Source: Streptomyces antibioticus
GTDB lineage: Bacteria > Actinomycetota > Actinomycetes > Streptomycetales > Streptomycetaceae
Assembly: GCF_002019855.1 (NCBI RefSeq)
Contig: NZ_CM007717.1
Coordinates: 5,133,798 to 5,197,797, forward strand
Direction: 5' to 3'
DNA: 64,000 nt
Shown here: positions 28,840 to 30,442 of the stretch, piece after piece
Layout of the letters: each line of letters starts with the position of its first letter
How positions within the stretch are numbered: the first letter of the stretch is position 1
Position numbers and translations under genes: made by a program
Notes under the pieces: model-generated
Told to the model about the DNA's origin: nothing
The model's database searches: none
What the model saw: the letters and a program-made list of their open reading frames with translations, nothing else

Positions 28840-28851
28840 CCGTCGTCCCTG

Positions 28852-28892
28852 TACGGCCGTGGAGTCCCCCGGGACCCCACGGCCGTACTGTT
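28852..28892 (+). terminator. Hairpin between adk and map
   Basis: An 11-bp stem (28852-28862 with 28877-28887) with additional inner pairs (gtccc/gggac) is followed by ctgttgtgt. It may attenuate reading into map. Confidence 0.55.
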
Positions 28893-28952
28893 GTGTAGTA
28901 CATGCCCCACCGAGTCCCCATCGACCTGAGTGACGGAGAGCGCAGGCCCCCC

Positions 28953-29789
28953 ATGGTGCAGATCAAGAGCCCCGAGCAGATCGCCAAGATGCGTGCGGCG
29001 GGGCTGGTCGTCGCAGCCATCCACGCGGCCACGCGTGAGGCGGCGGTGCCGGGGGCGAGCACGAAGGATCTCGACGAGGTCGCGCGCAAGGTGCTCGCGG
29101 AGCACGGCGCGAAGTCGAACTTCCTCGGGTACGGCGGCTTCCCGGCGACCATCTGCACCTCGGTCAACGACGTGGTGGTGCACGGCATCCCCTCCGACGA
29201 CGTGGTCCTCAAGGACGGCGACCTCATCTCCATCGACTGCGGCGCGATCGTGGACGGCTGGCACGGCGACGCGGCGTTCACCGCGTTCGTGGGTTCCGGT
29301 CACGCCCCGGAGCTGGTCGAGCTGTCGCGGGTGACCGAGGAGTCGATGTGGGCCGGCATCGCGGCCATGAAGGCCGGCAGCCGGCTCGTCGACGTCTCGC
29401 GGGCCATCGAGACGTACATCCGTCGGCAGCCGAAGCCGGGCGGCGGCCGCTACGGCATCATCGAGGACTACGGCGGCCACGGCATCGGCACCGAGATGCA
29501 CATGGACCCGCACCTGCTGAACTACGTCGACCGCCGCCGCGGCAAGGGCCCCAAGCTGGTCCCGGGCTTCTGCCTGGCCATCGAGCCGATGGTCTCGCTG
29601 GGCACCCCGCGCACGGAGGTCCTCCAGGACGACTGGACGGTCATCACGACGGACGGCACGTGGTCCTCCCACTGGGAACACTCCGTCGCGCTGACGGAGG
29701 AGGGCCCGCTGGTGTTGACGGCCCCGGACGGTGGCAAGGCGAAGCTCGCCGAGCATGGTGTGACCGCGGCCCCGGACCCGCTGGCCTGA
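28953..29789 (+). CDS. map: Methionine aminopeptidase, type I
   Basis: 278 residues from ATG 28953 (MVQIKSPEQIAKMRAAGLVV), the Streptomyces family start; an earlier ATG at 28902 is in frame but unsupported. It removes the initiator Met from nascent proteins. The pita-bread metal ligands are visible: ISIDCGAIVDGWHGD with two Asp, the GHGIGTEMH region with His, and the C-terminal Glu residues in AIEPM and HWEHS. The last 159 bp recur at 29896-30054, just downstream, with synonymous differences only. Confidence 0.98.
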   Translation: MVQIKSPEQIAKMRAAGLVVAAIHAATREAAVPGASTKDLDEVARKVLAEHGAKSNFLGYGGFPATICTSVNDVVVHGIPSDDVVLKDGDLISIDCGAIVDGWHGDAAFTAFVGSGHAPELVELSRVTEESMWAGIAAMKAGSRLVDVSRAIETYIRRQPKPGGGRYGIIEDYGGHGIGTEMHMDPHLLNYVDRRRGKGPKLVPGFCLAIEPMVSLGTPRTEVLQDDWTVITTDGTWSSHWEHSVALTEEGPLVLTAPDGGKAKLAEHGVTAAPDPLA

Positions 29790-29895
29790 GTGACGGGCCT
29801 GTCCTCGGCCGCCGGTCGGAGGCCGGCGCAGCCGCTCGACGCTTGTGAGGCGCCCTCGGCGCCGAGCCCGCGAGAGGGGCGTCCAAGAATGGGTC

Positions 29896-30054
29896 GACTG
29901 GACCGTCATCACGACGGACGGCACGTGGTCCTCCCACTGGGAACACTCCGTCGCGCTGACGGAAGAGGGCCCGCTGGTGTTGACGGCGCCTGATGGCGGC
30001 AAGGCGAAGCTCGCCGAGCACGGTGTGACCGCGGCACCGGATCCGCTGGCCTGA
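29896..30054 (+). pseudogene. Second copy of the map 3' end
   Basis: The 159 bp align without gaps to 29631-29789, the last 53 codons of map including the stop. There are 9 differences, all at third codon positions and all synonymous, so both copies encode the same segment from DWTVITTDGTWSSHWEHS to APDPLA. No map N-terminus precedes it; 29790-29895 holds no recognisable gene. The frame is open from a GTG at 29845 (69 residues), but such a product would lack most metal ligands. Confidence 0.93.
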
Positions 30055-30097
30055 GGTCGGTCGCGTAATGATCTCGTTCCTGGGGCAGACTTCTCGA

Positions 30098-30127
30098 TTC
30101 GTGTTTCCGAGAGGGCTGACGTAGACT
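30098..30127 (+). promoter_or_regulatory. Possible infA promoter
   Basis: TTCGTG at 30098-30103, an 18-bp spacer and TAGACT at 30122-30127, about 95 nt before infA. The -10 is good and the -35 weak. Confidence 0.4.
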
Positions 30128-30220
30128 GACTCGTCGGCTCTCGTGCACCCGCATGTCCGCATGCGCCCGTTAGGGAAAAGCTCGGGAGTCGATCAAGGTA
30201 GTCGATTCGAAGGGCGAAGC

Positions 30221-30442
30221 GTGGCCAAGAAGCAAGGTGCCATCGAGATCGAGGGCACTGTCGTCGAGTCTCTGCCGAACGCCATGTTCAAGGTCGAGCT
30301 CCAGAACGGCCACCAGGTCCTGGCACACATCAGCGGCAAGATGCGTATGCACTACATCCGCATCCTCCCTGACGACCGGGTCGTGGTGGAGCTGTCTCCG
30401 TACGACCTGACGCGTGGCCGGATCGTCTACCGGTACAAGTAG
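30221..30442 (+). CDS. infA: Translation initiation factor IF-1
   Basis: 73 residues from GTG 30221 ([20 protein letters not shown]). The single OB-fold includes [20 protein letters not shown] and ends [11 protein letters not shown]-1 occupies the A site during initiation. The frame is open upstream, but homologous sequence starts here. It sits 43 nt before rpmJ. Confidence 0.97.

Follow-up and report, generated by a model that had tools for sequence, protein, structure and literature searches.

The 64,000-nucleotide stretch of Streptomyces antibioticus DNA analysed here (the window) carries the 3' end of map twice. With a probability that we put at about 0.8, the second of these ends arose as a target duplication when a small mobile element, here named X, inserted. 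X is a dispersed repeat, one member of which makes up the spacer of about 100 bp between the two map copies. It would be non-autonomous; its mobility is suggested, at the level of sequence comparison, by its dispersed copies at unrelated genes. In the proposed mechanism X would insert just behind a stop codon, and a second gene tail, extending from a GA|Y site (GA|C, 26-250 bp upstream) to the stop, would be left behind X; the upstream gene would stay intact, the downstream gene would keep its leader, and the direct repeats would then permit tandem expansion, precise loss and within-genome homogenisation. We describe below the anatomy of X, its family, fold, taxonomic range, orientation and recurrence, and the positions of its boundaries.

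The map-infA locus and its two map 3' ends

The gene order around the locus is secY-adk-map-infA-rpmJ-rpsM-rpsK, and the features of the map-infA interval are collected in Table 1. An alternative in-frame ATG for map is present at 28902, and a strong 18-bp inverted repeat that is probably a terminator (28851-28888) lies between adk and map. Two more map-like paralogues, both without X, are found in the same genome (G000:C1:6841229-6841876 and 2655350-2655971), with about 65-69% DNA identity over parts.

Table 1. Features of the map-infA interval, in window coordinates.
Feature	Position	Strand	Basis
map, type I methionine aminopeptidase, full-length functional copy	28953..29789	+	ORF list and match to Streptomyces map loci
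Direct-repeat copy 1, map 3' end	29630..29790	+	repeat comparison
Variable 5' extension, map stop to X core	29791..29802	+	comparison with single-copy relatives
X core: hairpin 1 followed by a long, imperfect hairpin that contains internal loops	29803..29894	+	covariance model (85.5 bits), covariation, dispersed copies elsewhere
Direct-repeat copy 2, truncated map 3' end	29895..30055	+	9 silent differences over 159 bp
Native infA leader, adjoining copy 2 as in single-copy relatives	30056..30220	+	comparison with relatives
infA	30221..30442	+	ORF list and relatives

The original prediction, that the last 159 bp of map recur 265 bp downstream with nine gap-free and wholly silent substitutions, is borne out in full. 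The direct repeat (29627-29790 / 29892-30055) has a period of 265 and 94% identity; within it, 29631-29789 aligns without gaps to 29896-30054 over 159 bp with exactly 9 differences (at 29639, 29699, 29723, 29726, 29729, 29732, 29756, 29771 and 29777), all at third positions and silent, and a tenth difference, A29629/T29894, falls at the X junction. The upstream boundary of copy 1, which we call P1, reads 5'-GGA|C-3' and lies between 29629 and 29630; the 3' boundary is 1 nt past the TGA stop. The X core of the window ends ...GGGT at the P1 junction.

Only 28% of random changes in this 159-bp piece would be silent, so that the chance of a silent-only outcome is 0.28^9 = 1e-5 if all changes fell in copy 2, or 6e-4 if both copies drift. 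Since this is improbable for a freely decaying copy, coding constraint on both copies during their divergence is suggested, which agrees with the earlier proposal that the two had diverged as functional alleles. Silent-only differences are also seen at an era (-101) and a response regulator (-71) locus. Over 86 loci the differences between copies split 51:66:139 by codon position, indicating that some second copies decay while others do not. The simplest source of the silent changes at map could be that, once X had inserted, the functional copy exchanged alleles with close relatives outside our sample; part of the earlier proposal is retained in this, although its view of how the duplication arose is not.

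The same silent pattern, expected between functional alleles, had led to the proposal that recombination brought in a map allele and spared the resident gene's 3' end, which stayed behind. As an origin of the duplication this is now very improbable. The two copies are each other's best match at 94.3%, whereas neither exceeds 88.7% to about 125 other map 3' ends, so that copy 1 does not group with another sampled lineage as import had implied; no sampled relative lies within 11% of either copy. At most other duplicated map loci the copies within one genome are likewise closer than any between-species pair, which indicates that they are homogenised or recent. Nor can import of a map allele account for the recurrence of this anatomy, X between the copies included, at 22 gene families, i.e. 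at 21 besides map. That copy 2 adjoins the infA leader is correct, but no import is needed to account for it, because this is simply the native map-infA junction, as single-copy relatives show. In those relatives the map stop passes almost directly into the infA leader, which represents the empty site, and for this reason the 5' extension is assigned to the insertion. We thus prefer to see the duplication as existing because a mobile element, X, stands between the copies.

The covariance model search finds one X in this genome and no second copy, which would suit a misassembled or composite sequence, or a tandem duplication of unrelated origin confined to this strain. This explanation has a negligible probability. 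With 29560-30240 as query, the same map layout is found in several of 393 Streptomyces genomes; it recurs in many independent genomes, including on contigs of several megabases, which is not expected of a one-off assembly error. In other species the repeated map piece starts elsewhere and still ends at the map stop, and in one genome (G370, L010) five map 3' ends and four spacers stand in tandem.

Element X, a structured repeat of the Streptomycetaceae

A search with the spacer alone reveals X at map and at many other places in 93 of the 393 Streptomyces genomes, often as tandem arrays whose period (123-373 bp) differs from locus to locus; it is this recurrence that identifies the spacer as a dispersed repeat, a feature that the original prediction had passed over. 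Copy number ranges from 1 to 27 per genome, with 14-27 in the seven richest genomes, and the spacer core at the map loci of other species is 80-94% conserved. An array at L317 (84-718) in Streptomyces lilacinus NRRL B-1968 has six X copies in perfect tandem with a 120-bp period.

X is 80-95 nt long (about 92 nt for the core in the window) and is without an ORF of its own. The 92-position consensus, from 83 aligned copies, consists of a hairpin CCGG..CCGG followed by GCNG...CNGC enclosing CGAAGC..G.GAGGC(GCC/CCC)..(GGC/GGG)GCCGAGC.G.GCGAG; the 3' end at the P1 junction is GGY. In the proposed fold 97.4% of cells pair, and 123 cells are double-changed, compared with 45 +/- 4 after shuffling and at most 22 with one arm slid. 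The fold is visible only in the alignment: single-sequence folding of the window spacer is not significant (z -0.4). G-U pairs are common on the sense strand of the upstream gene, an argument for this being the strand that folds, as RNA. A CGTC occurs close to the 3' end of many copies but does not tag a simple palindrome, and no GTTRRRY core is obvious in X. Rfam models do not match X, whether in the window (E up to 10) or at nine other loci (E up to 5). A 69-codon ORF (29845-30054) begins with a GTG inside X and reads copy 2 in frame, perhaps by chance, although it could permit translation of the second map tail.

Among 247 Actinomycetes genomes of 103 genera the covariance model finds X only in Streptomyces. 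An exact-pattern scan of GTDB contigs returned, among the matches listed, Streptomyces, Streptacidiphilus, Streptantibioticus and Actinacidiphila, together with one contig labelled Actinobacteria bacterium OV450. By these sequence searches X is restricted to the Streptomycetaceae among the genomes and listed matches examined. The pattern is absent from the viral contigs of IMG/VR, and a phage or plasmid source was rejected, as the matches in phage and plasmid records were all short or weak and none spanned most of the query. Our search of the open literature turned up no account of X, which appears to be an undescribed genus- to family-wide structured repeat of Streptomyces.

All fetched loci were reduced to 250 non-redundant X loci, with genes called by codon usage, and over this set X stands at gene 3' ends. 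A direct repeat flanks X in 140 of the 250; where such a locus has a callable upstream gene, that gene is on the X strand in 133 of 134 cases and opposite in one. The stops preceding X are TGA, TAG or TAA, and the next gene is often far off; X lies between divergent genes at a single locus of the 250. At most of the 110 loci without a direct repeat, the 3' end of X abuts a convergent gene's stop codon (61 of 80 fall between -11 and +13 nt from it), and in some of them X supplies the stop. At L216, L218, L222, L223, L232 and L255 a 5'-truncated second copy, comprising the last 20-45 nt of X, follows a full X beside the convergent stop. In G089, G173, G258 and G074 many X copies have a longer intergenic repeat attached on the 5' side; at L206-L225 (G089) and L226-L241 (G173) these are long composites that contain tandem sub-repeats of 85-92 bp and lie against the stops of convergent genes. 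X may belong, as one module, to a larger repeat system.

Duplicated gene tails and how they may arise

At the 128 loci with a sense upstream gene, the repeated tail is 26-250 bp long (median 70) and its 3' end falls within -4..+10 nt of the stop in 87; part of the remainder are decayed copies or copies that include X hairpin 1. In five loci (L023, L055, L062, L104 and L123) the second tail continues beyond the stop into the 5' extension and part of X hairpin 1, and such copies are not explained by simple target duplication. The longest repeat observed, at L129 (G006), is a 252-bp direct repeat around X with a period of 330. The base before P1 is A in 83% (background 16%), a preference that the definition of the repeat boundary partly favours, and RA|C occurs in 52% (background 4%).

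The duplicated tails belong to 22 host gene families, among them map, era, obgE, tyrA, an MtrA/OmpR-type regulator, ABC-F, folP, fabI, lysS, moaE, thiolase, fumarase and malate dehydrogenase. Within one gene P1 varies between species (map about -162, -138, -111, -60 and -33; era -100 and -30; tyrA -123 and -40) while the stop-codon end is constant. At several loci P1 is identical across species, so the independent events are fewer than 128. In arrays, n copies of X alternate with n+1 host fragments at 19 of 26 loci, among those listed; this order, fragment-X-fragment-X-fragment, is the signature of insertion with target duplication.

The arrays bear on a rather unlikely explanation, namely that X has been inherited at each gene since an old burst, and that the varied fragments came about later via tandem duplication at the X hairpins and deletion of the last X. 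Partial last X copies do occur at some loci, the target genes recur across species with P1 often shared, and copies are homogenised within genomes, all of which such a history would accommodate. It fits poorly with a last unit that is a host fragment without X after it (the 19 of 26 arrays above), with the ending of that fragment at the stop codon and not at random deletion points, and with the 14-27 copies per genome at unrelated genes, which need dispersal.

The n+1 pattern is also compatible with the main alternative, which we consider possible although doubtful: that X is a MITE moved in trans, with no RNA step, by a transposase of the IS1549/IS1634 type, whose target duplications are long and variable. 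Variable duplications of 8-514 bp are reported for these two elements (PMC2266710). Against this, no IS1634 transposase over cut-off was found in 20 genomes, X-rich ones included, no terminal inverted repeats are obvious by eye in the X alignments, and a random stagger would not put one boundary at the stop codon. Y1_Tnp (PF01797) is likewise absent from the X-rich genomes G173, G089, G074, G277 and G308. These negative searches, with that for a reverse transcriptase given below, also weigh against our preferred reading of X as a mobile element. Campbell-type integration of a circle was rejected, since repeats of 26 bp are shorter than ordinary homologous recombination requires.

How X as a mobile element would come to duplicate a tail may be asked of the two boundaries. 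Mycobacterial RNase E prefers RR|C (PMC10641625). Because P1 resembles this actinobacterial RNase E site and the other end is the stop codon, an RNA intermediate is suggested: the duplicated tail would be copied from mRNA, from an RNase E-like cut to the stop codon. Such copying is speculative. It is favoured in that a stop codon has no meaning for a DNA nuclease, and in that the gene-sense strand is the folded one and X follows the orientation of the host gene. In its fullest and still tentative form, X would be a structured RNA that copies the host mRNA tail together with itself back into the gene, in an RNA-templated reaction coupled to translation termination, with the X-rich members lacking recognised reverse transcriptases. 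The RVT_1 reverse transcriptase domain (PF00078) is indeed absent from X-rich G173, G089, G098, G074, G277 and G308, which counts against the mRNA-copy route; an enzyme that has been lost, or one of a non-RVT_1 type, may be compatible with this absence.

Together, these results describe an element that appears to rearrange the 3' ends of essential genes while leaving the genes themselves intact. It accounts for puzzling second copies of gene tails with silent differences, as a class, and for species-specific tandem repeats, which may serve as strain markers. X also offers a defined and testable target: what moves it, and whether RNA is the template.

Comparison with known systems

The closest likeness in the duplications is to IS1549 and IS1634, of the IS1634 family, in which variable direct repeats of 8-514 bp flank the insertion without an accepted mechanism (PMC2266710). 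X shares the long variable direct repeats (26-250 bp), but those insertion sequences are 1.5-2 kb long with a DDE transposase, whereas X has no ORF, X-rich genomes have no such transposase, and the X duplications end at stop codons.

MIRUs share with X an orientation that follows the adjacent genes; they insert at DTGA sites between coupled genes and are not known to duplicate gene tails. They are intergenic units of 40-100 bp that occur in tandem in an actinomycete (PMC2734929), and in this X resembles them. X differs from them in sequence, in its conserved fold and tail duplication, and in following TGA, TAG or TAA and not DTGA stop/start overlaps.

X is also like REP/REPIN and the GTAG- and CGTC-tagged palindromes with RAYT in being a short structured repeat at gene 3' ends; CGTC-tagged palindrome families without a transposase are described (PMC3733652). 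REPs are palindromes of 20-40 bp, usually in head-to-head pairs, whereas X is a two-part unit of ~92 nt in one orientation with host-gene duplications, and the Y1 transposase of the REP/RAYT system is absent from the five X-rich genomes named above. With retroelements that have a reverse transcriptase (SINE/LINE-like, group II, retron), X shares a structured RNA strand and a conserved 3' end (GGY at P1), unlike them lacking PF00078 in the six X-rich genomes tested.

Phage 21 and e14 at icd present a picture like that at map here, a gene 3' end that occurs twice with mostly silent differences; theirs is one fixed gene end with an integrase, whereas X stands behind 22 different genes and the two copies enclose no integrase gene. 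The attC of an integron cassette is a structured site directly after a stop, in tandem arrays, with recombination near the 3' end of the site. X resembles it in being structured, right behind the stop codon and in tandem arrays, and differs in that its sequence is conserved (that of attC is not), that its unit is a gene tail only, at the native locus, and that no GTTRRRY core is obvious.

Short structured repeats that sit at the ends of genes are of a known kind. We know of no described element that makes a stop-codon-bounded duplication of a host gene tail with an RNase E-like site at its other end; should an RNA step be proven, X may stand further still from the known small repeats.
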